From NCBI GenBank assembly GCA_010365215.1, contig JAAFGT010000032.1, forward strand, positions 1 through 40,482: 40,482 nt of DNA. Reading direction: 5' to 3'. The notes beneath the pieces were generated by a model. That model saw nothing but the letters and a program-made list of their open reading frames with translations, was not told the origin of the DNA and searched no databases. Positions 3,235 to 18,169 of this stretch are shown here, piece after piece. Positions within the stretch are counted from its first letter, which is position 1; every line of letters starts with the position of its first letter. The position numbers and the translations under genes were made by a program. Source of the stretch: Acidipila sp. GTDB taxonomy: Bacteria; Acidobacteriota; Terriglobia; Acidiferrales; UBA7541.

Positions 3235-4503
3235 ATGCAACGCAAACAAATCCGCTGGCTGCTGCTCGGCGGCGTCGCCAGCATAGCGATCGTCGCGCTG
3301 CTCATGGCGCTTGGGCGCACCGACCCGTCGCCGCGCGTCACCGCCGCCAAAGTCACACGCGGCAACCTCAACGCCGCCGTCTCCACCAACGGAAAAGTTG
3401 AGGCGGTCGAGCCGTTTGTCCTGCGCGCCGAGCTTTCCAGCTTTGTCACTGGCGTCACCGCCATGGAAGGCCGCCACGTGCGCCGCGGCGACCTGTTGTT
3501 GCAACTCGACATGACCGCCACGCGCGCCGACCTCGCGCAAGCCCGCGAAGCTCAGCTTTCCGCCCAGGAAGATCTGCGCGCCGCGCGCGCCGGCGGCCGC
3601 GCCGACGAGCTCGGCCAGCTGGATAGCGACATCCGCAAATCTTCTTCCGACTTGGAACGCCTGCGCAGCGAACGCGCCGCGCTCGAGCGCCTGGTAGCGA
3701 AACAGGCCGCCACCAAGGACGAGCTGGCTCAGAACCGCGCCGCCCTCGATAAAGCCGAAGCCGAAGCCAAGCGCCTGGACTCCCGCAAAACGGAAATGGC
3801 ACGTCGCGCAGCTCTCGACGCCGAGCGCGCGCAGCTTTCCGGCACGCGCGCCCGCGAGGAGACGGCATCCCTCTCCGCGAAGGCGCGTCAGGGCCAGTTG
3901 CGTTCTCCGGTGGACGGCACCCTCTATCTGCTTCCCGTTCGCGCGGGAGATTACGTGCACCCCGGCGATCTCCTCGCCGAGGTTGCCGACCTCACGCGCG
4001 TCCGCGTTCGCGCCTTTGTCGACGAGCCGGACATGGGTCTACTCCAGCCCGGCCAGCCCGTCGATATCACCTGGGACGCGCTGCCCAGCCGCGTGTGGCA
4101 GGGCAGCACGGAGCAAACTCCAAAAACAGTAGTACCGCGCGGCACGCGCAGCGTCGGCGAACTGCTCTGCTCAGTGGTAAATGAAAAAGGCGAGCTGCTT
4201 CCGAATACCAACGTCAACGTGCGCATCCACGTGCAGGAGCGCAAGAATGTGCTGATGGTTCCGCGCGGCGCCGTCCGCACCGAAGGCATCCACCGTTACG
4301 TTTTCCAGGTCGTGGATTCAGCCGATCTAGGAAGGTCGGGCAGCCGTCTTCACCGCCGCGAGATTCACGTCGGCATTTCCAGCGCCACGGAATTTGAAAT
4401 CACCGACGGCTTGTCCGAGGGCGATCGCGTAGCGTTGCCGGGCGACGTGGATCTGTCCGATGGCATCAAAGTTCAAGTGGCTCCCGATCAGCCCGGGCAG
4501 TAG
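3235..4503 (+). CDS. HlyD/MacA-type periplasmic adaptor (membrane fusion) protein
   Basis: The 422-residue protein has an N-terminal membrane anchor (WLLLGGVASIAIVALLMAL, about residues 7-25). It then has the first half of a biotinyl-lipoyl hairpin (VEAVEPFVLRAELSSFVTGV...GRHVRRGDLLLQLD), a long Ala/Arg/Glu-rich coiled coil (about 95-220), the second lipoyl half (GQLRSPVDGTLYLLPVRAGDYVHPGDLLAEVAD), a beta-barrel domain (VRVRAFVDEPDMGLLQPGQPVDI) and a C-terminal membrane-proximal domain. This is the order in MacA/HlyD adaptors that link an inner-membrane ABC permease to TolC. No strong ribosome site precedes ATG 3235; a TGCTAGACT extended -10-like box lies 65 bases upstream. Its likely partners, a MacB-type permease and a TolC-family protein, lie 7 kb downstream, separated by sugar genes. 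Substrate unknown. Confidence 0.88.
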   Translation: MQRKQIRWLLLGGVASIAIVALLMALGRTDPSPRVTAAKVTRGNLNAAVSTNGKVEAVEPFVLRAELSSFVTGVTAMEGRHVRRGDLLLQLDMTATRADLAQAREAQLSAQEDLRAARAGGRADELGQLDSDIRKSSSDLERLRSERAALERLVAKQAATKDELAQNRAALDKAEAEAKRLDSRKTEMARRAALDAERAQLSGTRAREETASLSAKARQGQLRSPVDGTLYLLPVRAGDYVHPGDLLAEVADLTRVRVRAFVDEPDMGLLQPGQPVDITWDALPSRVWQGSTEQTPKTVVPRGTRSVGELLCSVVNEKGELLPNTNVNVRIHVQERKNVLMVPRGAVRTEGIHRYVFQVVDSADLGRSGSRLHRREIHVGISSATEFEITDGLSEGDRVALPGDVDLSDGIKVQVAPDQPGQ

Positions 4504-4600
4504 TTGTCCGAAAGTGAAAATTCCCTGTAGGCCACTGTCGCTATTTTTCGTGGGTAACGGTTATTCGGCAGCTGTTGTTCGAGCGTCGGTATAAATCAAA

Positions 4601-5578
4601 ATGATTTTTCGCACTTCATCTGTCCTGACCTTGATCCTCTGCGTGGCCATCGTAGCCGGCAGTCAGGTCCCTCCACCGTTAGCGGAATACCAGCGCCAGT
4701 TCGAAGCCGGCCACTACGCCGAGGCCGTGCGCACGCTGGAATCCGCGCTTGCTCAATCTCCTACCGATGCGCGCCTCCACTTTTGGCTGGCGCGCAGCAC
4801 TTACGAATTGCTGCAGTTCGACCGCGCCATTCAGTCCTTCGAGAAGGCCTGCCAGCTCGATCCCGTAAATTCCGACTACCGCCTCTGGCTGGCCCGCGCC
4901 GTAGGCCGCAAAGCGGAGCGCGACCGCAGTTTTTTTCTGGCTCGCCGCTCCAAGCGTGAGCTCGACGAAGCTGTGCGCCTGGCGCCGGGAAATATTCGCG
5001 CGCGCCGGGATCTCGCTGAGTTTTATTCCGATTCGCCGTGGATCGTCGGAGGCAGCAAGAGCAAAGCCCGTCAGGAAGTGGAAACGATTGCGCAGCAGGA
5101 TCCCATCGAAGGCATCCTCGCCCGCGCCGATTACTCTCGCAACGTGGACGATCCCGAGGCTGCGGCGCAGCAGTACCGCTTGCTTCTCGAGAAAAAGCCT
5201 TCGCGCCCCGGCCCCTATTTTGAGGCCCTCGATTTCTTCGAGAGCCGCAGGGATTCCACGCAGCTCGAGCTGTTTCTCGAGCCGGCCGCGCGCCTGGCCC
5301 CCGCCGACCCGCGCATCGCCTATTACCGCGCCGTCGCCCGCGTTTTTGCGGGCCAGGAACTTCCCGAGGCGGAAAAGGCTCTGCGCACGTACATCGACGC
5401 AGGTCCCGACCGCAGCGATATGCCCAACCACGCGGACGCCCACGAGCGCCTGGGGCTTCTCTACGAAAAGCTGAACAGCCCCGCGCGCGCCGAAGCCGAA
5501 TACCGTGTGGCGCTGGCCAGCGACCCCACGCGCAAGCGCGCCCTCGACGGCCTGAAACGCGTCACCGCACAGCGCTAA
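4601..5578 (+). CDS. Exported TPR-repeat protein
   Basis: The 325-residue protein has a signal peptide ([21 protein letters not shown]) and then TPR units: [54 protein letters not shown], a middle less regular set, and a last clear unit [34 protein letters not shown] solenoids mediate protein-protein contacts; here it would act in the periplasm. There is no Shine-Dalgarno sequence before ATG 4601, while TATAAA at 4590-4595 would place the transcript start on the ATG, so the gene may be leaderless. It lies 97 bases after the adaptor gene and may or may not be co-transcribed. No enzymatic motif is visible. Confidence 0.8.
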
Positions 5579-5684: not shown

Positions 5685-6488
5685 ATGATCAACGGAAAGC
5701 GCGTGGTGGTGGTGCTGCCCGCCTACAACGCCGAAAAAACTCTTGAGGCCACCGTTCGCGAGCTGCCCGATCTGGTCGACGCCAAAATTCTCGTCGACGA
5801 TCACAGTAACGATCAGACCGTGCAAGTGGCCAACCGCCTGGGCCTCAAAGTCTTTGTGCACGACGCCAACTACGGCTATGGCCGCAACCAGCAGACCTGC
5901 TACCGCGAAGCGCTCTCCGCCGGCGCCGACATCGTTATCATGGTGCATCCCGACTATCAGTATTCGCCGCTTCTGGTCACCGCCATCGCCAGCATGATCG
6001 CCTACGGCGTCTACGACATCGTGCTGGGCTCGCGCATCATCGGTGGTGGCGCGCTTAAAGGCGGGATGCCGCTTTACAAATATATTTCCAACCGCCTGCT
6101 CACCGCGTTCCAGAATATGCTGCTCGGCGCCAAGCTCTCCGAATACCACACCGGCTATCGCGGCTTCACTCGCCAGGTGCTGATGGCCTTGCCGCTGCTC
6201 GAAAATTCCGACGATTTTGTCTTCGACAACCAGATCCTCACGCAGGCCGTCTTTTTCGGCTATCGCATCGGCGAAGTCTCCTGCCCCACAAAATATTTTG
6301 AAGAGGCTTCCTCGATTAATTTTCGGCGCAGCGTGAAATACGGTTTCGGCGTGCTGGCCACCAGCTTGAAATTCGCCTGCGAAAAAATGGGCCTGGCCCA
6401 TTTCAGCATTTTCAGCCCGCGCGGCCGCCGGCTGGAGCTGAACTATTACGCTCCTCCCTTGCGCGAGACCTCTACGCTGCCCACGTGA
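5685..6488 (+). CDS. Family 2 glycosyltransferase, DPM1-like
   Basis: The 267-residue soluble GT-A enzyme has the nucleotide-binding N-terminus [14 protein letters not shown], the acidic pair in [11 protein letters not shown] (Asp38/Asp39), and the metal-binding region MVHPDYQY (Asp90). Later come GSRII and [11 protein letters not shown], typical of the dolichyl/polyprenyl-phosphate mannose synthase-like branch. Such enzymes make a polyprenyl-phosphate sugar at the cytoplasmic face that GT-C membrane enzymes use on the other side. It has no C-terminal membrane helices. Its stop overlaps the start of the following membrane protein by four bases (GTGA), so the two are very likely translated together, consistent with a donor-synthase/membrane-transferase pair. 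The sugar is not predictable. Confidence 0.88.
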
Positions 6489-8017
6489 ACCCTCCCTCGC
6501 TGGAGCATTCGTTGGTTAATTCTTCGCGCCAGTTCAGCGATTCACAAACTTCCTCGAAGCCGGCAGATTTTCTCTATCTCGCCCTGCTCACCATCGGCGC
6601 CATGCTGGTCGCTGGCTATCATCCCTACGTCGAGGATGCCGAGATCTATCTTCCCGGCGTGAAGAAAATTCTCAACCCGGCGCTCTACCCTTTTGGCGGA
6701 GAGTTTTTTCTCTCCCACGCGCACATGACGCTCTTTCCCCGCCTGATCGCCTGGTCGGTGCGCCTCTCCCACCTGCCGTTTGATGTGGCGATTTTTCTGT
6801 GGCAGCTGCTTTCGATTTTCCTGCTGCTGCTGGCCTGCTGGAAATTGAGCGGCCTCTGTTTCCGCGACTCCCGCGCCCGCTGGTGCGGCGTCGCGCTGGT
6901 AGCCGCGCTTTTGACTCTGCCGGTAGCCGGCACCGCGCTCTACATCATGGACCAGTACATCACTTCGCGGTCCCTCTCCGCCTTCAGCGTTTTCTTTGCA
7001 ATTTTTTACGCCGTGAAAAGGAAATATCTCTGGGCCGCGCTGTGGATCGTGTTCACCGCCGCAGTCCACCCGTTGATGTCCGTGTTTGGCCTGGCCTACT
7101 TGTTTTTCCTGTTCTTCACGCGCACACGCGGCGGCGCGGAAAACTCCTCCGTGCGTCTAGCCGCACTGCTGCTTCCTTTCGGTCTTTCGCTGCATTCTCC
7201 CTCGGAGGCCTACCGCGAAGCCGTCGCCACGCGCTCGTATTTTTTTATCCTCCAGTGGGCCTGGTACGAGTGGCTGGGAATTTTCGCGCCGCTGGCGATC
7301 CTCTGGTGGATCAGCCGCATCGCCGGAAAAAATCAACTCGCCGCCCTGGAACGGATGTCGCGCGCGCTGATTCCCTTCGCGCTGAGTTTCTTTGCCCTCG
7401 CGCTGATCATCACCATCCCCGACCACCTGCTCAGCCTCGCCTGGTTCCAGCCCATGCGCAGCTTCTACATTCTTTATATTCTGTTGATCCTCTTCGGCGG
7501 CGGCCTGCTCGCGCAATTCGTTTTAAGAAATCGCCTGTGGCGTTGGGCTGTGCTGTTTCTGCCGCTCTGCGCGGGAATGTTTTACGCCCAGCGCCAGATT
7601 TTTCCCGGCACCGTGCATCTCGAACTTCCCGGCCGCGCGTCCCGCAATCCCTGGGTGCAGTCGTTCACATGGATCCGCGACAACACTCCCACCGATGCGC
7701 TTTTCGCTCTCGATCCCGCGCACATGGCCCTGCCCGGCGAAGACCAGCACGGTTTCCGCGCCCTCGCCGAGCGCAGCCGCCTGGCCGACCACACCAAAGA
7801 TTCCGGCGCTGTAACCATGTTTCCCGATCTGCCCGTAGCCGACCACTGGCGCGAACAGGCTCGCGCGCAAGACGGTTGGAGCCATTTCCAGCGAGATGAT
7901 TTCGCGCGGCTAAAAAAACTCTACGGAGTAACCTGGGTTGTGCTGCAACCCCCCGGCGTTCCCGGTTTGACTTGCCCCTACCAGAATGACGCGCTCATGG
8001 TCTGCCGCCTCGACTAA
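6485..8017 (+). CDS. Polytopic membrane protein, possible GT-C-like partner of the upstream GT2
   Basis: The 510-residue protein has about ten to twelve hydrophobic helices (for example [67 protein letters not shown]). The first loop carries [14 protein letters not shown] and the segment [17 protein letters not shown]. The C-terminal 140 residues are a soluble domain with [29 protein letters not shown] and ADHTKDSG. It resembles uncharacterised families (I think of DUF6798) whose first-loop acidic residues suggest a GT-C-type transferase. The start is GTG 6485, inside the stop of the GT2 gene (GTGA overlap). No function is proven; the overlap with a DPM1-like enzyme is the main clue. Confidence 0.65.
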
Positions 8018-8145: not shown

Positions 8146-8781
8146 ATGCCCGCTAATTCGGCCACACGCCCTGCTGCTGACCTATCTGCGCTGGCCGCCG
8201 AACAAGACATTGTCGCTATCGGCGCGCGCAACGATTTAAACTTGGCGATTCAACGCCGCAGCGCAAAAACTCTGGGCGCCGTCATCACCCACCTGGGCGT
8301 TCCCGAAATAATTTCCGGCGTCGCGCTCGAACCCTTGCAGCTTTTTGCCGACGACCGTGGTTGCTTCACCGAGCTCGCGCGCCTGGGCCGCCCGGGAATC
8401 GCCGAAAAATTGATTCCCGGCGGGGATCGCCGCATTCAAATCTCTCTGACGCTGACCTATCCCGGGGCCATCAAAGCGATTCATTATCACTACGAACAGA
8501 CCGATCTTTGGGTACCCATCGCTGGGATGTTGCAAGTGTTTCTCTACGACCTGCGCCGCGGCTCGGCCACGTTTGGGCGCATCAATACACTTTTCGTCGG
8601 CAAATTTCGCCCCTGGGAAATCCTTATCCCGCCCGGCGTGGCCCACGGCTACAAAACGCTGGGCCACGAACCCGCGCAGCTTCTCTACATCACCGACCGT
8701 CATCACAATCCCGCGGACGAGGGGCGCCTGCCTCACGATCATCCGGAAATCGCCTACGACTGGGAGACGCAACACAAATAA
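8146..8781 (+). CDS. rfbC: dTDP-4-dehydrorhamnose 3,5-epimerase-like protein
   Basis: The 211-residue cupin-fold protein catalyses, by family, epimerisation of dTDP-4-keto-6-deoxyglucose at C3 and C5. It shows LFADDRGCFTE, then GAIKAIHYHYEQTDLWVPIAGMLQVFLYDLR, corresponding to the catalytic His and surrounding strand of RmlC, and PPGVAHGYKTLG, corresponding to the second half of the cupin. An extra N-terminal stretch of about 50 residues precedes the fold. ATG 8146 is preferred over the in-frame TTG 8140 because GTGAGGA at 8130-8136 is properly spaced only for the ATG. It is the first gene of a rfbCDAB operon, five bases before rfbD. The sequence is divergent from standard RmlC, so a related epimerase such as a mono-epimerase is possible. 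Confidence 0.85.
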   Translation: MPANSATRPAADLSALAAEQDIVAIGARNDLNLAIQRRSAKTLGAVITHLGVPEIISGVALEPLQLFADDRGCFTELARLGRPGIAEKLIPGGDRRIQISLTLTYPGAIKAIHYHYEQTDLWVPIAGMLQVFLYDLRRGSATFGRINTLFVGKFRPWEILIPPGVAHGYKTLGHEPAQLLYITDRHHNPADEGRLPHDHPEIAYDWETQHK

Positions 8782-8786
8782 TTGCC

Positions 8787-9728
8787 ATGAAAATTCTGGT
8801 TATTGGCGCTGGCGGATTGCTGGGAAGCGCGCTGGTTGAGCAGGGTCGCTCGCGCGGCGTCATCGGCGCCACAAAAAACGATGGCGACATTCGCGACGCC
8901 GCCGCTGTTCGCGCGCTGTTCCTGCGCACGCGCCCGGACTGCACCATACTCGCCGCGGCCTACGCCGATGTCGACGGCTGCGAACGGCAGCCCCATCTGG
9001 CCATAGAGGTGAACTTCAAGGGCGCCGCCCACGTGGCCCGCGCCGCGCTCGAATCCGGCTCGCGGCTGCTCTACGTCAGCACCGATTACGTTTTCGACGG
9101 CGCGAAGAATTCCCCCTACGAAATTAGCGACCCGCCGAATCCGCTCAGCGCCTACGGCCGGTCGAAAGCCGCCGGCGAAGCGGCGGTGCTCGAAATTCTG
9201 CCGCAGGCCTGCATCGTGCGCACCGCGCGGCTTTTCGGAACCACCGGCCACTGCTTCCCCGCCGCCATTCTCGAGCTCGCGGCAACCCGCGCGGAAATAT
9301 CTGTGGTCGACGACCAAATCGGCTCGCCCACCTTCCATTGCGATCTGGCCGGCGCGCTACTGCATTGCGCCGAAACGCGCACAGCAGGAGTCATCCACGC
9401 CACCAACGCCGGCGCGTGTTCCTGGTTCGACTTCGCGAAAGAGATACTTCGCGCCTCGGGCATGAACAAGGTTAGCGTCCGCGCGATCAGCAGTGGACAG
9501 TCGGGACGACTCGCACCCCGCCCAAAGTATTCCGTCCTTTCCAATACCAGCCTGCGCGCCTGCGGAATTTCTTTGCGCTCCTGGCAAGAGGCTCTGGCCG
9601 CCTACCTGGAAGAACGCCAAGCCGCGCAACAGCCCGGGCAACAGCACACACAACAACACCCACAACAGCCCGGCGCACCCGACGCGGTTCACCCGATCGC
9701 CGCCGGAACTGCCGGAAGGCCGCGATGA
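8787..9728 (+). CDS. rfbD: dTDP-4-dehydrorhamnose reductase
   Basis: The 313-residue short-chain-dehydrogenase-fold enzyme reduces dTDP-4-keto-L-rhamnose to dTDP-L-rhamnose. It has a dinucleotide-binding GAGGLLGSAL near the N-terminus, GDIRDAAAV, AAYADVDGCE, STDYVFDG and the catalytic YGRSKAAGE (Tyr-x3-Lys). The start is ATG 8787, giving the canonical MKILVIGAGGLLG N-terminus; the same frame is open further upstream but that is shadow sequence over rfbC. The C-terminal end (about the last 40 residues) is Gln/His/Pro-rich (QPGQQHTQQHPQQPG), unlike the family, and seems a low-complexity extension. It overlaps rfbA by four bases (ATGA). Confidence 0.92.
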   Translation: MKILVIGAGGLLGSALVEQGRSRGVIGATKNDGDIRDAAAVRALFLRTRPDCTILAAAYADVDGCERQPHLAIEVNFKGAAHVARAALESGSRLLYVSTDYVFDGAKNSPYEISDPPNPLSAYGRSKAAGEAAVLEILPQACIVRTARLFGTTGHCFPAAILELAATRAEISVVDDQIGSPTFHCDLAGALLHCAETRTAGVIHATNAGACSWFDFAKEILRASGMNKVSVRAISSGQSGRLAPRPKYSVLSNTSLRACGISLRSWQEALAAYLEERQAAQQPGQQHTQQHPQQPGAPDAVHPIAAGTAGRPR

Positions 9729-10501
9729 AAGGCATCATCCTGGCCGGCGGCACCGGCTCGCGCCTCTATCCGCTCACTCGCGTCACGAACAAACACCTGC
9801 TCCCCGTTTACGACAAGCCCATGATCTATTACCCGCTGCAGATCCTGGTGGACGCCGGAATCCGCGACATCCTCATCGTCTGCGGCGGAAACAGCGCCGG
9901 TGAGTTTTTGCGGCTGCTGCGCAATGGCGTCGATTTCGGCCTGCAACAGCTCAATTTTGCCTATCAGGAAGGTGAAGGCGGCATCGCCGACGCGCTGCGC
10001 CTGGCCGAATATTTTTCCGGCGGCGAAAAGATCTGCGTCGTGCTCGGCGATAATCTCATCGAGCGCGACATCCGCCAGGCCCGCGAAAAATTCGAGCGCC
10101 AGGACCGCGGCGCCATGGTGCTGCTGAAAGAAGTTCCCGACCCGCAGCGCTTCGGCGTCCCCGTATTCGAGGGCGAGCGCATCCTGCGCATCGAAGAAAA
10201 GCCGCAGTCCCCGCAGTCTCCCTATGCCGTGATCGGAATCTACTTTTACGACGGTACGGTCTTCAATCGCATCCGCACTCTGCAGCCCTCGGCGCGCGCC
10301 GAGTATGAAATCACCGACGTCAATAACTCTTACCTGCGCGACGGCCTGCTCTCCCATTCCCTCCTCGACGGCTGGTGGACCGACGCCGGAACGCTCGAAT
10401 CGCTGTGGCGCGCCAGCGGAATGGTCCGCGAAAAAGTGCGCGCGGCTCAGGGCCGCGGCGCCGAAAGCAAAGTTCGCGGCGCCGGAGCCACGCGCCCATG
10501 A
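9725..10501 (+). CDS. rfbA: Glucose-1-phosphate thymidylyltransferase (short form)
   Basis: The 258-residue nucleotidyltransferase makes dTDP-glucose from dTTP and glucose-1-phosphate. The N-terminal signature is intact: GIILAGGTGSRLYPLT, then NKHLLPVYDKPMIYYPLQ with its catalytic Lys/Asp, then LGDNLIE, EEKPQSPQSPYAVIGIYFYD and GWWTDAGTLESLW. The usual RmlA is about 290 residues with a C-terminal helical allosteric segment; here the family match ends near residue 235 and is followed by a basic, Ala/Gly/Arg tail, so this is the short form. It overlaps both neighbours by four bases, indicating translational coupling. Confidence 0.92.
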   Translation: MKGIILAGGTGSRLYPLTRVTNKHLLPVYDKPMIYYPLQILVDAGIRDILIVCGGNSAGEFLRLLRNGVDFGLQQLNFAYQEGEGGIADALRLAEYFSGGEKICVVLGDNLIERDIRQAREKFERQDRGAMVLLKEVPDPQRFGVPVFEGERILRIEEKPQSPQSPYAVIGIYFYDGTVFNRIRTLQPSARAEYEITDVNNSYLRDGLLSHSLLDGWWTDAGTLESLWRASGMVREKVRAAQGRGAESKVRGAGATRP

Positions 10502-11523
10502 CTCGCGTCCTGGTCACCGGCGGCGCTGGATTCATCGGCTCCAACTTCGTTCACTACCTGCTGGAAAAATATCCCGACTACCGCATCGTCGTGGTCGACA
10601 AGCTCACCTATGCCGGAAACCTCAAAAATCTGGAAAACGCTCTGCAGAATCCGCGCCTGCAATTCGTGCGTCTGGACATCTGCGATCCCGCGGTAACCGA
10701 AGCCGCGCAGGGCTGCGACCTGGCGGTGCATTTTGCCGCCGAAACCCACGTCGACCGCAGCATCGAAGACGCCGCCGCGTTTACGCGCACCAATGTCGAG
10801 GGCACCTGGCGCATAGCGGAAGCCTGCCGCGCGAATCGCCTGCGCCGTTTCCTCCAGGTCAGCACCGACGAGGTTTATGGCAGCTTGGGGCCCGCCGGCA
10901 AATTCACCGAGACTTCCCCGCTGAACCCCAGCAGCCCTTATGCCGCCACCAAAGCGGCTGCCGACCTGATGGTCCTCTCGCTCGTCCGTACCCACGGCTT
11001 TCCCGCGATCGTCACGCGCTGCTCCAACAATTACGGGCCTTACCAGTTTCCTGAAAAATTTATTCCCTTGATCATCGCGCAGGCGCTCGACAATCAGCCC
11101 CTGCCGCTTTATGGCGACGGGCTTAACGTCCGCGATTGGATACATGTCTCCGACCACTGCCGCGCGCTCGATCTGATTCTTCACTACGGACGCGACGCCG
11201 AGATCTACAACATCGGCGGCGACTGCGAGCGCCGCAACATCGATGTAGCCCGCGCGATTCTGCGCAGCATGGGCAAGCCCGAAAGCCTGATTCAATTCGT
11301 CTCCGACCGCCCCTGCCACGACCGCCGTTACGCTCTCGACTCCAGCAAACTGGCAAACGAGCTGGGTTGGCGGCCGCTGGAAAACTTTGAGGCTGGGCTC
11401 ACCGCCACGCTGCGCTGGTATCAGCAGCACTCCGCCTGGCTCGACCAGACGCGCAGCGGAGAATATCGCGATTACTTCGAGAGAAATTATCTGCGCCGCG
11501 CGGCCACTCTCCCGGCGCATTGA
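10498..11523 (+). CDS. rfbB: dTDP-glucose 4,6-dehydratase
   Basis: The 341-residue extended SDR enzyme converts dTDP-glucose to dTDP-4-keto-6-deoxyglucose. It starts at ATG 10498 (MTRVLVTGGAGFIGSNFVHYLL), overlapping rfbA. It shows the NAD-binding GGAGFIGSN, HFAAETHVDRSI, STDEVYGSLG with the catalytic Thr-Asp-Glu triad, YAATKAAADLM (Tyr-x3-Lys), NNYGPYQFPEKFIPL and GDGLNVRDWIHVSDHC. Length and motifs are standard. With rfbC, rfbD and rfbA it completes dTDP-L-rhamnose synthesis for cell-surface polysaccharide, alongside the upstream glycosyltransferase genes. Confidence 0.95.
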   Translation: MTRVLVTGGAGFIGSNFVHYLLEKYPDYRIVVVDKLTYAGNLKNLENALQNPRLQFVRLDICDPAVTEAAQGCDLAVHFAAETHVDRSIEDAAAFTRTNVEGTWRIAEACRANRLRRFLQVSTDEVYGSLGPAGKFTETSPLNPSSPYAATKAAADLMVLSLVRTHGFPAIVTRCSNNYGPYQFPEKFIPLIIAQALDNQPLPLYGDGLNVRDWIHVSDHCRALDLILHYGRDAEIYNIGGDCERRNIDVARAILRSMGKPESLIQFVSDRPCHDRRYALDSSKLANELGWRPLENFEAGLTATLRWYQQHSAWLDQTRSGEYRDYFERNYLRRAATLPAH

Positions 11524-11621: not shown

Positions 11622-12824
11622 ATGCTGAGAAGCGAAACCCTCATCGTCGCCCTCGACGCCCTGCGCGCCAACAAGGTGAAAGCTTTCCTCACCATGCTGG
11701 GCGTGGTGATCGGCAGCGCCTGCATCGTACTCGTGGTCACCGTCGCGCTCACCGGGAAAAACTACATCCTTTCGGTCATCGAAGGCGTCGGCTCCAACCT
11801 GGTGTACGCCCAGGCGCTGCGCTCCGGCCCGCCGCAAACCGCCGTGCTGGCCGATGAGATCACCGTCGGCGACCTGGAAGCGGTGCGCGAGGGAATCCCG
11901 CAAATCAAGGAAGCAGGCGCCAGCCGCGATCTCAGCCTCAGCGTGATCGTCGACGGCGTGGAACGCGCCGTCACCGTGGTCGGCATCACTTCCGGTTTCC
12001 AGCAGATTCGCAACCTGGTAGTCGTTCGCGGACGCCTGCTCGACGACGACGACCTGGCCGCGCGCAGCAAAGTCACCGCGATCACTGAGGAGCTTGCCGC
12101 GCACGCCTTCCCCCACGACGATCCCATCGGCCAGACGCTGCGTGTGGGCGAGCTGCGCTTCACCGTTGTGGGCGTTTTTCGCGAGCGCGTGGCCACTTTC
12201 GGCCAGTCCGAAATCGAAGCGGAGTCCGCGCTGATCCCTCTCGGGCTGCTGAAGTACTACACTGGCAACGATTATCTGCGCGTGCTCTACGCCCAGGCCC
12301 GCCGCCCGGAGGATGTAGCCAGCGTGACGCGCCAGGTCACGGAAGTGTTACGCACCCGCCATCGCCCGGAGGCCACCTACACGGTCAAGAATCTCACCGC
12401 GCTGCTCGATGCCGCCCGGCTGATCTCGCTGGTCCTCTCCATCATCCTGGTCATCGTCGCGGCAATTGCACTGGTCATCAGCGGTGTGGGTATCATGAAC
12501 ATCATGCTGGTCACCGTCACCGAGCGCACGCGGGAGATCGGGGTGCGTATGGCCATTGGCGCGCCCCGCGGCGAAATTCGCTGGCAGTTCCTGATCGAAG
12601 CCCTGATCATCAGCGGCACGGGAGCAATTGTGGGGATTCTGATCGCCGTCAGCATCCCGCTGCTGGTAAAGCCCTGGCTGCCCGGCAGCATTTCCATTTC
12701 CGTTTCCTGGGTCTCCATCCTGTTGGCTTTCGGCGTCACCTGTCTTTCCGGCGTTCTTTTCGGTTATCTACCGGCCAATCGCGCCGCTAAACTCCAGCCC
12801 ACTGAATCCTTGCGATATGAATAG
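11622..12824 (+). CDS. MacB/FtsX-type ABC transporter permease without an ATPase domain
   Basis: The 400-residue protein has an N-terminal helix (KAFLTMLGVVIGSACIVLVVTVAL), a periplasmic MacB core domain of about 230 residues, and three C-terminal helices of the FtsX family (LISLVLSIILVIVAAIALVISGVGIMNIMLVTVTERTREIGVRMAIGAPRGEI, then two more). The conserved ERTREIGVRMAIGA cytoplasmic motif couples to an ABC ATPase. MacB itself carries the ATPase at its N-terminus, but here the protein begins directly at the membrane domain, and no lolD-like ATPase gene adjoins. It overlaps the downstream TolC gene by eight bases. It probably works with the adaptor at 3235 and a separately encoded ATPase. Confidence 0.85.
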   Translation: MLRSETLIVALDALRANKVKAFLTMLGVVIGSACIVLVVTVALTGKNYILSVIEGVGSNLVYAQALRSGPPQTAVLADEITVGDLEAVREGIPQIKEAGASRDLSLSVIVDGVERAVTVVGITSGFQQIRNLVVVRGRLLDDDDLAARSKVTAITEELAAHAFPHDDPIGQTLRVGELRFTVVGVFRERVATFGQSEIEAESALIPLGLLKYYTGNDYLRVLYAQARRPEDVASVTRQVTEVLRTRHRPEATYTVKNLTALLDAARLISLVLSIILVIVAAIALVISGVGIMNIMLVTVTERTREIGVRMAIGAPRGEIRWQFLIEALIISGTGAIVGILIAVSIPLLVKPWLPGSISISVSWVSILLAFGVTCLSGVLFGYLPANRAAKLQPTESLRYE

Positions 12825-14256
12825 CTTCCAATTTTTCAAAAATCTTTTCTCGCAGGCTCGCGCTTTTGCCCCTCGCTTCAGCGCCGCGTCCGCGCTGCTG
12901 ATCGGCATGTTCGCGCTGGGCTTGGCTACGCGCGCACAGGAACAGCCCGCCCATGACCCCGCTACTCCGGAACCACCAACCCAAGACGCCGACCAGCGCA
13001 CCGACACCATCCCCTCCGCCCGCTTGACCTTGAAAAGCGCGGTAAGCCAGGCCCTCCAGAGCAGCCGCGAAGTTGCCCTGGCGCGCTTGCAAGCCAGCGT
13101 CGCGGAAAAATCCGCCGGAATCACTCGCGCCCGCTTTATGCCGAATCTTTATACGGGCTCCGGCATCGCCTATTCCAATGGCTTTCCTCAAACGCCCGGT
13201 GGCGCCGCGCCGTCGCTCTTTAACTTGTCTTACATACAAACGGTATTCAATCCGCCGCTGCGCGGCGAGCTTCGTGCCGCGCAAACTCGCACCGACATCC
13301 AGCGCCTCGAAGCCGACCGTGTGCGCGACAACGTCATCGTCAGCACCGCCTCTACCTACTTCGAGCTGGCCAACGTGCGCCACGCTCTGGCGTTGCTCCG
13401 CAAGGAACGCTCCAGCGCCACGCGTATTATGGACCTGACCCGTGACCGCGTCGTCGCCGGCCTCGAACTGCCCATCGAGCTCACCCGCTCTGAGCTTTCT
13501 GCCGCGCGCGTAGAACAGCAGAATCTGCGTTTCGAAGGGCGCGAGGACGTTCTCGAAGCGCAGCTTCGCGACCTCTGCGGCCTCGCTCCCGACCGCCGCG
13601 TCATTCTTGCCGACCAGCCGGAAATGCTCCCCGCCTTGCCCGCCGCCGGCCAGGCCGACCAGCCCCTTCCCGAGTTGGTCAGCCTGGGCATCGCCAGCAG
13701 CATCGAGCTCAAGCAAGCACAGCTCGAGTATCAAGCCCGCCAGCAACACCTGCATGGCGAACGCGGCGGCTACTGGCCCACCGTAGACGTAGTCGGCGAA
13801 TACAGCCTGCTCAGCAAAATCAATAACTACGACAAATTCTTCAAGCGCTTCCAGCGCAACAACCTCAACCTTGGCCTGCAGATTACCGTTCCCATTTACA
13901 GCGCCAACACTCGCGCCGCCGTCGATTTCGCCCGGGCCAACCTTTCCGCCGCGGAGCTACAGGTGCGCTCGCGCCGCACCCAGGTGGAAAACGACGTGCG
14001 CCGCGAGGCTCGCTATACTCGCGAGCTGGAATCCGGCCGCGAGGTCGCGCGCCTCGAGCTCAAGCTTGCTCAGGAAGATTTGCGCGTGCTTCAGGCGCGC
14101 TTCGACGAAGGCCGCGCCGGCCTGCGCGACATGGAGAAATTGCGCCTCGAAGAAACCACTCGCTGGCTGGCCTACATCGACGCCGACTTCGAGTACCAAA
14201 AAGCTCGTCTCGAACTGCTCCGCCAGACCGGCCAACTGGCGTCTATACTTCAGTAA
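12817..14256 (+). CDS. TolC-family outer-membrane efflux protein
   Basis: The 479-residue protein has an N-terminal export signal (about residues 16-41, ending ATRAQEQ), then two repeated outer-membrane efflux halves. Each has helical coiled-coil and strand segments, for example LTLKSAVSQALQSSREVALARLQASVAEKSAGITRARFMPNLY and, in the second half, VSLGIASSIELKQAQLEYQARQQHLHGERGGYWPTVDVVGEY. Length and repeat match TolC/CusC-type trimeric channels. Start ATG 12817 lies inside the end of the permease gene (eight-base overlap), so the two are translationally coupled. It should form the outer-membrane exit duct for the MacB-type permease and the adaptor encoded at 3235. Confidence 0.9.
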   Translation: MNSFQFFKNLFSQARAFAPRFSAASALLIGMFALGLATRAQEQPAHDPATPEPPTQDADQRTDTIPSARLTLKSAVSQALQSSREVALARLQASVAEKSAGITRARFMPNLYTGSGIAYSNGFPQTPGGAAPSLFNLSYIQTVFNPPLRGELRAAQTRTDIQRLEADRVRDNVIVSTASTYFELANVRHALALLRKERSSATRIMDLTRDRVVAGLELPIELTRSELSAARVEQQNLRFEGREDVLEAQLRDLCGLAPDRRVILADQPEMLPALPAAGQADQPLPELVSLGIASSIELKQAQLEYQARQQHLHGERGGYWPTVDVVGEYSLLSKINNYDKFFKRFQRNNLNLGLQITVPIYSANTRAAVDFARANLSAAELQVRSRRTQVENDVRREARYTRELESGREVARLELKLAQEDLRVLQARFDEGRAGLRDMEKLRLEETTRWLAYIDADFEYQKARLELLRQTGQLASILQ

Positions 14257-14489: not shown

Positions 14490-15998
14490 ATGATGAGTTC
14501 GTCCGTAATGAAGACCCTGCTGTTGAACCCGCCGAGCTTCGAGAATTTCGACGGCGGCGCCAGCTCGCGCTGGCCGGCGACTCGCGAGATTGAATCCTAC
14601 TGGTACCCCGTCTGGCTGGCCTACCCGGCCGGCATGTTGCCCGGAAGCCGGCTGCTCGACGCTGGCCCGCACAAAATCACCCCGGCGGAAACCGTGCGTA
14701 TCGCTGCCGGCTACGACTTCGTGGTTTTATTTACCTCCACCGTTGGCTTTAACAGCGATCTGCGCCTGGCTCGCGAAATGAAAGCTGCCAAGCCCGACCT
14801 GAAAATCTGCTTCGTCGGCCCGCATGTCCAGACCCAGCCGGACCGCAGCCTCAACCAGAGCGCCGATATCGACTTCATCGTGCGCGGCGAATTTGAGCTC
14901 GCCGTGGTGGCTTTCGCCGAGGGACATCCGCTCGAATCCATCGAGAACGTCAGCTACCGCAAAAATGGCCGCATCGTTCACAATAACGAACGCGACAAAC
15001 TGCACACCGAAGAGCTCGACGCCCTGCCCTTCGTCACCGAAGTGTATAAGCGCGATCTGACCATCGAAAAATACACCGTGCCCTTCCTGATGCATCCCTT
15101 TGTTTCCTTTTATACTTCGCGCGGCTGCCCCGCCCTGTGCACGTTTTGCATGTGGCCGCAGACTCTCTCCGGCCACGCTTGGAGGGTGCGCTCGAATGAC
15201 AACGTCGCCCGCGAGCTCGCTCAGGCCTATAAAATGTTTCCGCAGGCCAAAGAGTTTTACTTCGACGACGACACGTTTAACATCCGCAAAGACCGCGTCA
15301 TCGACCTCTGCAAGCGCTTCGCGAAAATCGGCTGCCGCTGGAGCGCCAACGCCCGCGTGCACAGCGACTACGAAACTCTGAAAGCCATGTCCGACGGCGG
15401 CGGCCGCCTGCTCATCGTGGGTTTTGAATCGGGCGACGCGCAAATCCTCAAGAACGTCAAGAAGGGCGCCACCCTGGAGATGGCTCGCACCTTCATGAAG
15501 AACTGCAAAAAAGTCGGTATCCGCGTGCACGGCGATTTCATCATCGGCCTCCCCGGCGAAACCAAGGAGACCATCGCCAAGACCATCGAATTCGCCAAGG
15601 AGCTCGACTGCGAGACCATTCAGGTCTCGCTCGCCCACGCCATGCCCGGCACCGAGCTTTACACTTTCGCCGACCAGAACGGCTTCCTCGCCACCGAAGC
15701 TCTCGCCGACGCTGGCGGCCACCAGCTTCCCCACTTGCAGTATCCCGGCATCTCGCGCGACGAAATGCTGGACGGCGTCAATCGCTTCTACGACGATTAC
15801 TATTTCCGCCCCCGCGTCGCCTGGCGTATCGTCCGCGAAGCGCTGTGGGATTCCAGCGAACGCAAGCGCCTCTACGACGAAGCCGTCAGCTTTCTCAAGC
15901 TGCGCCGCGAGCGCGTCAAAATCGCGCGCCAGGGCATGACCAAGAAGCCCCTGGTCGCCGTCGCCGCGCCGTCCAGTTCCGGCCCAGCCGCGGATTAA
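14490..15998 (+). CDS. hpnJ: Hopanoid biosynthesis B12-binding radical SAM protein HpnJ
   Basis: The 502-residue cytosolic enzyme starts with MKTLLLNPPSFENFDGGA after a few extra residues; ATG 14508 is an alternative start. Residues about 8-150 are a B12-binding-like Rossmann domain (GYDFVVLFTSTVGFNSD, ICFVGPHVQTQP). Then the radical SAM core has the cluster motif Cys213-x3-Cys217-x2-Cys220 (RGCPALCTFCMWPQTLSG), DDDTFN, and GDFIIGLPGETKET. The FENFDGG and SYWYPVWLAYPAG stretches are characteristic of HpnJ. In Burkholderia, HpnJ is needed to turn bacteriohopanetetrol glucosamine into the cyclitol ether. It leads a four-gene module ending in hpnI; hpnK (deacetylase) is not in the window. Confidence 0.88.
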   Translation: MMSSSVMKTLLLNPPSFENFDGGASSRWPATREIESYWYPVWLAYPAGMLPGSRLLDAGPHKITPAETVRIAAGYDFVVLFTSTVGFNSDLRLAREMKAAKPDLKICFVGPHVQTQPDRSLNQSADIDFIVRGEFELAVVAFAEGHPLESIENVSYRKNGRIVHNNERDKLHTEELDALPFVTEVYKRDLTIEKYTVPFLMHPFVSFYTSRGCPALCTFCMWPQTLSGHAWRVRSNDNVARELAQAYKMFPQAKEFYFDDDTFNIRKDRVIDLCKRFAKIGCRWSANARVHSDYETLKAMSDGGGRLLIVGFESGDAQILKNVKKGATLEMARTFMKNCKKVGIRVHGDFIIGLPGETKETIAKTIEFAKELDCETIQVSLAHAMPGTELYTFADQNGFLATEALADAGGHQLPHLQYPGISRDEMLDGVNRFYDDYYFRPRVAWRIVREALWDSSERKRLYDEAVSFLKLRRERVKIARQGMTKKPLVAVAAPSSSGPAAD

Positions 15999-16010
15999 TT
16001 CACTCGCTGC

Positions 16011-16481
16011 ATGCCTGCCGTGCACACTTTGCGGACGAAGACCTTCGTCCTGATCGCCCTCATGGTTTTATTCGGCTCCTCGGGCGACGTCCTCCTCGGC
16101 AAAGGCATGAAGGAAGTCGGCAAGCTAACCGCCTGGACCCTCCCCGCGCTGTTTCATTTTCTCTTGCCCGCTTTATTAAATCCTACCGTCTGGCTGGGCA
16201 TCTCGTGCCTGCTGCTTTTCTTTCTGGCCTACATGATCGTGCTCAGTTGGGCGGATTTCAGTTACGTCCTCCCCGCCTCCGCCGCCGGCTACGCCGTTGT
16301 CCCGCTCCTCGGCCACCTGTTCCTTGGTGAAGCCGTCAGCCCGCTGCGTTGGACCGGCGTCGCCTTCATCTGCGTCGGCGTAGTGCTGGTAGGCAACACG
16401 CCGCCAAGCACTACCACTCTCGCACCCGCTCCCGCGCCCGCGCGTTCCGCCTCCCACGCGCCAGCCGCGACGGGGAGCTGA
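16011..16481 (+). CDS. Small EamA/SMR-like membrane protein (first of a pair)
   Basis: The 156-residue protein has four predicted helices: FVLIALMVLFGSSGDVLLGKG, LLPALLNPTVWLGISCLLLFFLAYMIVL, FSYVLPASAAGYAVVPLLGHLFLGE and WTGVAFICVGVVLVG. Its C-terminal tail of about 30 residues is Pro/Ala-rich. The GEAVSPLRWTGVAFICVGVVLV end is typical of the drug/metabolite transporter superfamily, in half-size form that must dimerise. It starts 12 bases after hpnJ and is followed after two bases by a second such gene. The arrangement recalls ArnE/ArnF, two small subunits that flip a lipid-linked aminosugar. A role in moving hopanoid glycolipids is inference from position. Confidence 0.75.
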   Translation: MPAVHTLRTKTFVLIALMVLFGSSGDVLLGKGMKEVGKLTAWTLPALFHFLLPALLNPTVWLGISCLLLFFLAYMIVLSWADFSYVLPASAAGYAVVPLLGHLFLGEAVSPLRWTGVAFICVGVVLVGNTPPSTTTLAPAPAPARSASHAPAATGS

Positions 16482-16483
16482 CC

Positions 16484-16852
16484 GTGCGCAACACCATCCT
16501 CGTCTTCCTGGTCACCGTCGCCGGCACCCTCGGTGAGATGTCCGTCGGCCGCGCCATGAAAGATATCGGCGAGGTCACGCGCTTCACCCCTCGCGCAATT
16601 TTCCGCGTGGTCCTGCAATCCATGGCGCGTCCCTTCATGTGGCTGGGCCTTCTTCTCATGGCCGTGGCGTTCTTTTCCCTTCTGCTGCTGCTCTCCTGGG
16701 AAAACGTCAGCTTCGCCGTGCCCGTCACCGCGCTCAGCTATGTCATCGCCGCGGTGGGAGCGAAATTTCTTCTGCGGGAAGAAGTCAGCGGCCTCCGCTG
16801 GCTTGGCGTAGGGATGGTTGTCGTGGGCGTAAGTCTGGTCTGGGCCGGTTAG
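16484..16852 (+). CDS. Small EamA/SMR-like membrane protein (second of a pair)
   Basis: The 122-residue four-helix protein contains NTILVFLVTVAGTLGEMSVGRAM, FMWLGLLLMAVAFFSLLLLLSWENVS, FAVPVTALSYVIAAVGAKFLLREE and GLRWLGVGMVVVGVSLVWAG. GTG 16484 is chosen because GGGGAG sits six bases upstream, and the frame upstream of it overlaps the first gene. The protein is alignable to its neighbour (both have G(D/E)x3GxxMK(E/D)(V/I)G after helix one and the LRWxGVxxxxVGVxLV end), so the pair arose by duplication and probably forms a heterodimer. Last gene before a 99-base gap preceding hpnI. Confidence 0.75.
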   Translation: MRNTILVFLVTVAGTLGEMSVGRAMKDIGEVTRFTPRAIFRVVLQSMARPFMWLGLLLMAVAFFSLLLLLSWENVSFAVPVTALSYVIAAVGAKFLLREEVSGLRWLGVGMVVVGVSLVWAG

Positions 16853-16951
16853 CGACTTTTCACTGGGTTAAATCAGTGGGTTAAAATTGTCTCGTAGGTC
16901 ACACTTGCGTAGTAGGCTGGGCTTATCTAGCAAGCCAGAAAAAGTCTAAGC

Positions 16952-18169
16952 ATGTTTTTCCTGCTGCTCAAGATCGTCACCGCTACGGGCGCCCTCAGCG
17001 CCGCCGGCTTTTACGTGGTTGCGCTGCTCGGCGCCGCAACCTTCCGCCGCCGCGCCGCCCACGCCGTTTCTTCCTCGCCAGGCGGCGATGCGCGCACCGC
17101 GGAGAAACCCTTCACCCCGCCGGTCTCTCTCCTCAAGCCTTTGCGCGGCACCGACCCGCACGCCTACGAAAGTCTGCGCAGCCACTGCGTGCTCGATTAT
17201 CCGCAGTACGAAATTCTCTTTGGCGTCGCCGATCCCGCCGACCCCGCGGTCGCCCTGGTCGAGCGCCTCATCCGCGAATTTCCCGCGCGCGACATTCGCC
17301 TGGTCATCTGCTCTCAGGCGCTCGGCACCAACCGCAAAGTCAGCAACCTCATTCAGATGCTTCCGCACGCCGCCCACGATCACCTGCTCATCAACGACAG
17401 CGACATCTTCGTACCTCGCGACTATCTCCGCCGCATCCTGGCGCCGTTCCGCGACCAGCGCGTGGGCATGGTCACCTGCCTCTACCGCGGCGTACCCGGC
17501 CGCACCCTCGGCTCCCGACTCGAAGCGCTCGCCATCAGCACGGAATTTTTTCCCGGCGTGCTCGCGGCGCTGCGCCTGGAAAAAGGCATGCGCTTCGCTC
17601 TCGGCTCCACTCTGGCTTTTCCGCGCCGCGCCCTCGCCGCCATCGGCGGCTTCGAGCCACTGCTCGATTATCTCGCCGACGATTTCGAGCTGGGCAGCCG
17701 CATCGCCGCCGCCGGCTTCGAAGTCTTCCTCGCCGACGTGGTCGTCGAAACCCATCTGCCCAACTACACCTTCGTCGATTTTTTTGCCCATCAACTCCGT
17801 TGGGGCCGCAGCACCCGCGACTCGCGCCCATGGGGCTACACCGGCGTCCTGCTGACCCAAGGCCTCCCGTGGGCCCTGGCCGCCCTGGCCGCGTCCTATC
17901 TCCCGTCAAGCAGCGCGGTCTCCGTGACCGGATGGGGATCCGAGTGGGGCTGGATGTTGCTCGCACTGATCATCTTTCTGCGCCTCGCCGTCGCCGACAC
18001 CGTCGGCCGCAAAATCCTCCACGACCGCCACCTCTGGCGCAATATCTGGCTCCTCCCCCTCCGCGACCTGGTCGGCCTCGCCGTCTGGATCGGCAGCTAC
18101 ACCGGACGCCGCGTCCGCTGGCGCGAAGAAGAATTCATCCTGGAAAAAGGCCGCCTCAGGCCCACCTGA
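16952..18169 (+). CDS. hpnI: Hopanoid glycosyltransferase HpnI (GT21-like)
   Basis: The 405-residue membrane-bound family 2/21 glycosyltransferase has an N-terminal helix (about residues 2-30). The catalytic domain shows PPVSLLKPLRGTD, HCVLDYPQYEILFGVADPADPA, NRKVSNL, and INDSDIF (Asp149-x-Asp151). Then come LADDFELG and HQLRWGRSTR, the counterpart of the Q-x2-RW motif. Two or three C-terminal helices end the protein (GVLLTQGLPWALAALAASY and WMLLALIIFLRLAV). This is the architecture of ceramide glucosyltransferase-like HpnI, which adds N-acetylglucosamine to bacteriohopanetetrol. Close linkage to hpnJ strongly supports the call over a ceramide glucosyltransferase. ATG 16952 follows a weak ribosome site. 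Confidence 0.85.
   Translation: MFFLLLKIVTATGALSAAGFYVVALLGAATFRRRAAHAVSSSPGGDARTAEKPFTPPVSLLKPLRGTDPHAYESLRSHCVLDYPQYEILFGVADPADPAVALVERLIREFPARDIRLVICSQALGTNRKVSNLIQMLPHAAHDHLLINDSDIFVPRDYLRRILAPFRDQRVGMVTCLYRGVPGRTLGSRLEALAISTEFFPGVLAALRLEKGMRFALGSTLAFPRRALAAIGGFEPLLDYLADDFELGSRIAAAGFEVFLADVVVETHLPNYTFVDFFAHQLRWGRSTRDSRPWGYTGVLLTQGLPWALAALAASYLPSSSAVSVTGWGSEWGWMLLALIIFLRLAVADTVGRKILHDRHLWRNIWLLPLRDLVGLAVWIGSYTGRRVRWREEEFILEKGRLRPT

Follow-up and report, generated by a model that had tools for sequence, protein, structure and literature searches.

A paired half-size DMT transporter linked to hopanoid decoration genes as a candidate hopanoid-glycolipid flippase in Acidobacteriota

Results

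A DMT gene pair between hpnJ and hpnI

We analyzed a 40,482-nucleotide stretch of DNA from Acidipila sp. (GenBank assembly GCA_010365215.1, contig JAAFGT010000032.1), hereafter the window, which is an entire contig whose closest named relatives are Candidatus Acidiferrales metagenome-assembled genomes (79% identity for HpnJ). Our subject is a pair of genes, DMT1 and DMT2, which encode half-size proteins of the drug/metabolite transporter (DMT) type and lie between hpnJ and hpnI, two genes for enzymes that decorate hopanoids. An initial annotation of the window had described the two as related half-size DMT genes in this position, and both its coordinates and the homology hold. The four genes form a single plus-strand cassette with intergenic gaps of 12 bases (hpnJ-DMT1), 2 bases (DMT1-DMT2), and 99 bases (DMT2-hpnI); profile calls here and below were judged against curated NCBIfam or Pfam cut-offs.

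14490..15998, plus strand: hpnJ, B12-binding radical SAM enzyme for the cyclitol ether step of bacteriohopanetetrol (BHT) decoration; TIGR03471, 703 bits, above the cut-off of 577.6; Radical_SAM and B12-binding domains
16011..16481, plus strand: DMT1, 156 residues, ATG start, subunit of the small multidrug resistance (SMR) fold with four transmembrane (TM) helices, predicted N-in/C-in, Asp26 in TM1
16484..16852, plus strand: DMT2, 122 residues, GTG start, four-TM SMR-fold subunit, predicted N-out/C-out, Glu18 in TM1
16952..18169, plus strand: hpnI, BHT N-acetylglucosaminyltransferase (GT21-like); TIGR03472, 368 bits, above the cut-off of 310

The pair is linked to hpnJ across Acidobacteriota

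hpnJ occurs in 46 of the 297 Acidobacteriota genomes that we sampled, and we read 40 hpnJ neighborhoods from this survey together with 80 named loci. Among the loci with at least 1.2 kb of sequence after hpnJ (39 from the survey and 76 named), DMT genes follow hpnJ at a distance of at most 10 kb in 35 and 70, respectively, or 105 of 115, and of at most 3 kb in 34 and 69 (103 loci). The initial annotation had proposed such a survey, naming rare linkage as the outcome that would count against its reading, and linkage proved to be the rule. DMT1 and DMT2 are most often joined by a 4-base overlap, and several families (among them f33 and f11) have the order hpnJ-hpnK-DMT1-DMT2-hpnI; since these loci hold hpnK as well as the pair, we rejected compensation for a missing hpnK as the pair's role. 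Using the DMT1 profile on all 297 genomes, we found an adjacent pair in 42 of the 46 hpnJ genomes versus 5 of the 251 that lack hpnJ (Fisher's exact test, 1e-40, without phylogenetic correction), a linkage far beyond chance. In one of these five (G103), hpnJ is split in two next to an intact pair (L177, G103:C34), as a result of either pseudogene formation or an assembly error; the other four lack HpnH.

In the literature outside subscription journals, where an earlier mention is possible, we found no link of hpnJ or hpnI with DMT or EamA genes. A 2017 acidobacterial survey reports two extra genes between its clusters and hpnJ in strain KBS 83 (PMC5462960). In the KBS 83 locus (L128) the DMT pair directly follows hpnJ, and the two extra genes may be this pair.

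DMT1 and DMT2 resemble the subunits of an antiparallel SMR dimer

DMT1 and DMT2 share 30% identity (E = 1e-17) and are homologous; their family profiles match each other with 99.96% probability. Against the EamA model PF00892 (gathering cut-off 28.2), DMT2 scores 30.2 bits, above the cut-off, and DMT1 24.4 bits, below it; at E < 0.01 the model matches every member of both families (39 of 39 for DMT1 and 37 of 37 for DMT2), while the SMR model PF00893 matches just 1 of the 76 at the same threshold. ArnE is the nearest named family by profile, with matches in 30 of 37 DMT2 and 20 of 39 DMT1 members, and the window's two proteins score 22.4 and 29.2 bits against it, far under the cut-off of 92. 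A sequence search of the PDB with DMT1 gave no significant match. AlphaFold2 models built with family alignments show four TM helices and a short helix in loop 1 (pLDDT 87.6 and 91.7). Among known structures they match EmrE and Gdx-Clo best: the DMT1 model aligns with EmrE at Z 11.8 and an rmsd of 3.1 Å over 109 residues, and the top Foldseek matches of the DMT2 model are to Gdx-Clo, with weak E-values.

The Lys/Arg charge bias averages +2.7 in the DMT1 family (range 0 to 7) and −6.5 in the DMT2 family (−10 to −3), is balanced in 18 single-gene relatives (−2 to +1), and amounts to 0 and −6 in the window's own DMT1 and DMT2. Paired SMR proteins have been reported to carry opposite Lys/Arg charge and singletons to be balanced (PMC9574504), so this pattern supports an antiparallel dimer. 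Next to a conserved glycine of TM1, 36 of 37 DMT2 members have Asp or Glu and 36 of 39 DMT1 members have Asp or Asn; lipid SMRs often have Asn in place of the central Glu and may lack proton coupling (PMC9574504). Apparent natural fusions of the two DMT halves at three loci (L061, L067, and L072) were discarded as over-long, wrong-frame open reading frames for which the protein listing gives separate genes, and a domain scan for DMT-DMT fusions found none. Together, the fold, the opposite charge bias, and the position of ArnE as nearest named family support the ArnE/ArnF-like architecture that had been suggested for the pair.

The DMT genes follow the sugar step, also in a second phylum

Two of the 42 pair genomes (G291 and G267) have hpnJ at another site and the pair together with hpnK, in G291 also with hpnI; we therefore abandoned the idea that the pair merely trails hpnJ. 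Among genomes that have HpnH and no hpnJ match, three (G037, G274, and G066) carry a single DMT gene after hpnI-hpnK and a fourth (G235) carries one about 0.4 kb downstream of hpnI. Moreover, DMT2 and HpnI of G291 form one continuous frame of 675 residues (L175:7687-9711, G291:C131), a fusion that comes from one draft genome and in which a sequencing error deleting a stop is possible. The position of DMT genes after hpnK or hpnI without a local hpnJ, together with this fusion, ties the DMT proteins to the sugar step.

A second phylum, that of two genomes titled Deltaproteobacteria, has hpnJ in 45 of 395 sampled genomes, and 38 of its hpnJ loci were read. A DMT gene directly follows hpnK in 15 of the 38, as a single gene in 13 and in the order hpnJ-hpnK-DMT1-DMT2-hpnI, as in L133, in 2; in a further genome (G557), hpnK-DMT1-DMT2-hpnI stands apart from hpnJ. 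Four lines of evidence strongly support the dedicated link to hopanoid decoration put forward in the initial annotation: these two-phylum neighborhoods, the HpnI fusion, the presence of DMT genes with hpnK/hpnI irrespective of hpnJ, and the complementarity with HpnL described below.

Some loci carry additional genes. Three loci of the second phylum (L219, L222, and L224) have a radical SAM-like gene, about 360 codons long, between hpnJ and hpnK. At L186 and L189, DegT aminotransferase-like and sugar epimerase-like genes come after a single ArnE-like DMT gene, which at L189 directly follows hpnI-hpnK; this arrangement possibly reflects a further aminosugar step.

HpnL and the pair show complementary occurrence

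In two Acidobacteria, G029 (hpnI-hpnJ-hpnK-hpnL) and G278 (hpnJ-hpnK-hpnI-hpnL), HpnL is encoded in the hpn cluster and the DMT pair is absent. All six Proteobacteria records (Mycetohabitans, two Paraburkholderia, two Caballeronia, and Methylobacterium) likewise encode HpnL within the hpn cluster, and in no locus examined did it occur together with the pair. An HpnL-like match is present in 2 of the 42 acidobacterial hpnJ genomes with the pair and in 3 of the 4 without it (Fisher's exact test, 0.0025); genomes of the second phylum divide into 12 with DMT only, 21 with HpnL only, 6 with both, and 1 with neither (3.5e-5). The window's genome has no match to HpnL (TIGR03476) at E ≤ 1e-10. HpnL, whose function was stated in 2025 as not established (PMC12583986), matches the flippase-like TIGR00374 group weakly. 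The DMT pair seems to stand in for HpnL, which is the carrier candidate of other bacteria.

An exporter-like block lies upstream of hpnJ

Ahead of the cassette, the window carries four genes with counterparts in related loci:

3235..4503, plus strand: HlyD/RND-type periplasmic adaptor, part of a conserved upstream block; TIGR01730, 147 bits, above the cut-off of 94.9
4601..5578, plus strand: TPR protein of the same conserved block
11622..12824, plus strand: MacB-like FtsX permease without an ATPase domain (PF12704, PF02687), kept in the closest relatives
12817..14256, plus strand: TolC-like outer membrane factor (PF02321), kept directly upstream of hpnJ in relatives

Of the DMT loci with at least 5 kb of upstream sequence (33 from the survey and 51 named), 21 and 38, respectively, have a TolC-like gene in the 2.5 kb upstream of hpnJ. 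This gene usually comes after genes for an HlyD adaptor and a TPR protein, with a MacB-like permease gene also ahead of it in Acidiferrales and gp2 loci. The window has this block (3235-5578 and 11622-14256), split by rml sugar genes: rmlD, an RmlA-like nucleotidyltransferase gene, and an RmlB-like dehydratase gene (8361-11523) are inserted between the TPR and MacB-like genes. Positions 5685-8014 hold a GT2 gene resembling polyprenyl-phosphate-sugar synthases, followed by a gene for an uncharacterized protein of 510 residues with a sub-threshold DUF6798 match. The HpnL carrier G029 also has MacB-TolC genes, upstream of a squalene-hopene-cyclase-like gene recognized by eye.

No HpnN (TIGR03480) match reaches E ≤ 1e-10 in the window's genome, and 38 acidobacterial genomes hold no HpnN above the cut-off. 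The adaptor-TPR-(MacB-like)-TolC block is a candidate replacement for HpnN as the route to the outer membrane. The occurrence of HpnL in the same position elsewhere, this block, and the absence of HpnN point beyond what the initial annotation had considered.

The window's genome also has no HpnK above the cut-off, the best TIGR03473 match reaching 216.3 against 232.6 on another contig. This only HpnK-like protein of the genome (L191:8106-10278, G000:C3) adjoins an ArnC/DPM-like glycosyltransferase, and we take the two to resemble a NaxD-type unit; on account of this pairing and resemblance, it was rejected as the missing deacetylase of N-acetylglucosaminyl (GlcNAc)-BHT.

Discussion

HpnI, HpnK, and HpnJ are expected to work on the cytoplasmic side of the inner membrane, so their products require a flip before export, a step for which the DMT pair is the best candidate. 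A functional association of the pair with hopanoid decoration is well supported; that the pair is a flippase, with a glucosaminyl or cyclitol hopanoid as its cargo, is an inference. On balance we favor a model in which DMT1 and DMT2 form an antiparallel SMR/DMT heterodimer that probably flips HpnI-glycosylated hopanoids of the inner membrane from the cytoplasmic leaflet into the periplasmic one. In this model, the two subunits would dimerize in opposite orientations, transport would be directed toward the periplasm, and the conserved acidic residues of TM1 may couple transport to protons or may only bind the sugar head group. HpnI, HpnK, and HpnJ in turn make GlcNAc-, glucosaminyl (GlcN)-, and cyclitol-BHT (PMC12583986); any of these three could be the cargo.

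The closest precedent is ArnE/ArnF, the flippase of undecaprenyl-phosphate-linked 4-amino-4-deoxy-L-arabinose and a member of the lipid subtype of SMR proteins (PMC9574504), which likewise consists of two half-size four-TM subunits encoded within a glycolipid-decoration cluster. The pair differs from it in scoring 22–29 bits against an ArnE cut-off of 92, in its linkage to hpnJ, hpnK, and hpnI with no arn genes in the window's cluster, in the Asp/Glu (DMT2) or Asp/Asn (DMT1) beside the conserved TM1 glycine, and in the short extra loop-1 helix. Because it reaches neither the ArnE cut-off nor the arn operon context, we do not file the pair as ArnE/ArnF. EmrE and the Gdx transporters share the fold and the antiparallel dimer logic, but they carry small cationic drugs or guanidinium, and their PF00893 model matches a single DMT member. 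HpnL shares the pair's place in hpnI/J/K clusters and its complementary occurrence, but is an unrelated single protein of about 350 residues, while HpnN, an RND hopanoid transporter, shares the theme of hopanoid trafficking and acts between the inner and outer membranes.

The ArnE relationship raises the alternative that the pair flips an undecaprenyl-phosphate-linked aminosugar for lipid A or glycan modification and that its hopanoid neighborhood reflects shared envelope regulation. Besides ArnE being the nearest named family, distant homologues lie beside (L190) or near (L182) an ArnT-like gene, single DMT genes precede the DegT aminotransferase and epimerase genes of L186 and L189 (gene names at these four loci were read by eye), and at L091 a NaxD-like deacetylase gene and an ArnC-like gene follow hpnJ-DMT1-DMT2-hpnI. 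However, L091 is the only locus among those read gene by gene in which an ArnC-like gene accompanies an hpnJ-linked pair, the NaxD-like/ArnC-like unit of the window's genome is on a separate contig, and HpnK-paralogous genes are present in the pair-less G029 and G278 as well. The DMT2-HpnI fusion and the recurrence of the hpnJ-hpnK-DMT order in the second phylum also argue against this explanation, which we regard as unlikely.

Less probable still is that the DMT proteins are non-transporting membrane partners of HpnI or HpnJ that hold hopanoid or present it to the enzymes; gene adjacency and the HpnI fusion of one genome would fit such a role, but the opposite or balanced charge pattern is typical of antiparallel transporters, and the EamA/SMR core and the acidic TM1 positions are strongly conserved. 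Export of a small by-product or metabolite (adenine, 5'-deoxyadenosine, or an amine) is the least probable alternative: EamA and SMR families mostly carry small molecules, and the reactions of HpnG and of radical SAM enzymes set free adenine or 5'-deoxyadenosine, but DMT genes follow hpnK/hpnI also in genomes that lack hpnJ or have it at another site, DMT2 is fused to HpnI of the sugar step, and the complementary HpnL weakly matches the flippase-like TIGR00374 group.

Several observations weigh against the hopanoid flippase model. The Foldseek E-values are weak (0.01 at best), and similarity of predicted folds does not prove function. The linkage and exclusion statistics come from genomes that are not phylogenetically independent. 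Homologous pairs are present in four genomes without HpnH (G169, G201, G215, and G074), so the DMT family extends beyond bacteria that make hopanoids. The lack of an HpnK above the cut-off in the window's genome leaves its exact end product uncertain. As for complementarity, six second-phylum genomes carry both DMT and HpnL-like genes, most HpnL-like genes of that phylum fall short of the HpnL cut-off and lack linkage to hpn genes, and the two cyanobacterial hpnJ loci, of Scytonema and Rhizonema, have neither DMT nor HpnL.

A broader and more tentative proposal is that in Acidobacteria DMT1/DMT2 takes the place of HpnL and the adaptor-TPR-MacB-like-TolC block that of HpnN, HpnL being the unrecognized hopanoid flippase of Proteobacteria. 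Under this proposal, Acidobacteria would have a full trafficking route of their own, with DMT1/DMT2 flipping glycosylated hopanoids within the inner membrane and the upstream TolC machine delivering these lipids to the outer membrane.

Hopanoids rank among the major lipids of bacterial membranes and leave the hopanes of the fossil record, yet the crossing of the inner membrane by their glycosylated forms is a step without an assigned carrier. The DMT pair and HpnL are unrelated candidates for it at one genomic position, which makes the assignment testable for both. If the flippase model is correct, the predicted cargo would be new for a glycolipid flippase of the SMR type, HpnL would gain a function, and the glycolipid-flippase role of half-size DMT proteins would extend past polyprenyl-phosphate sugars.

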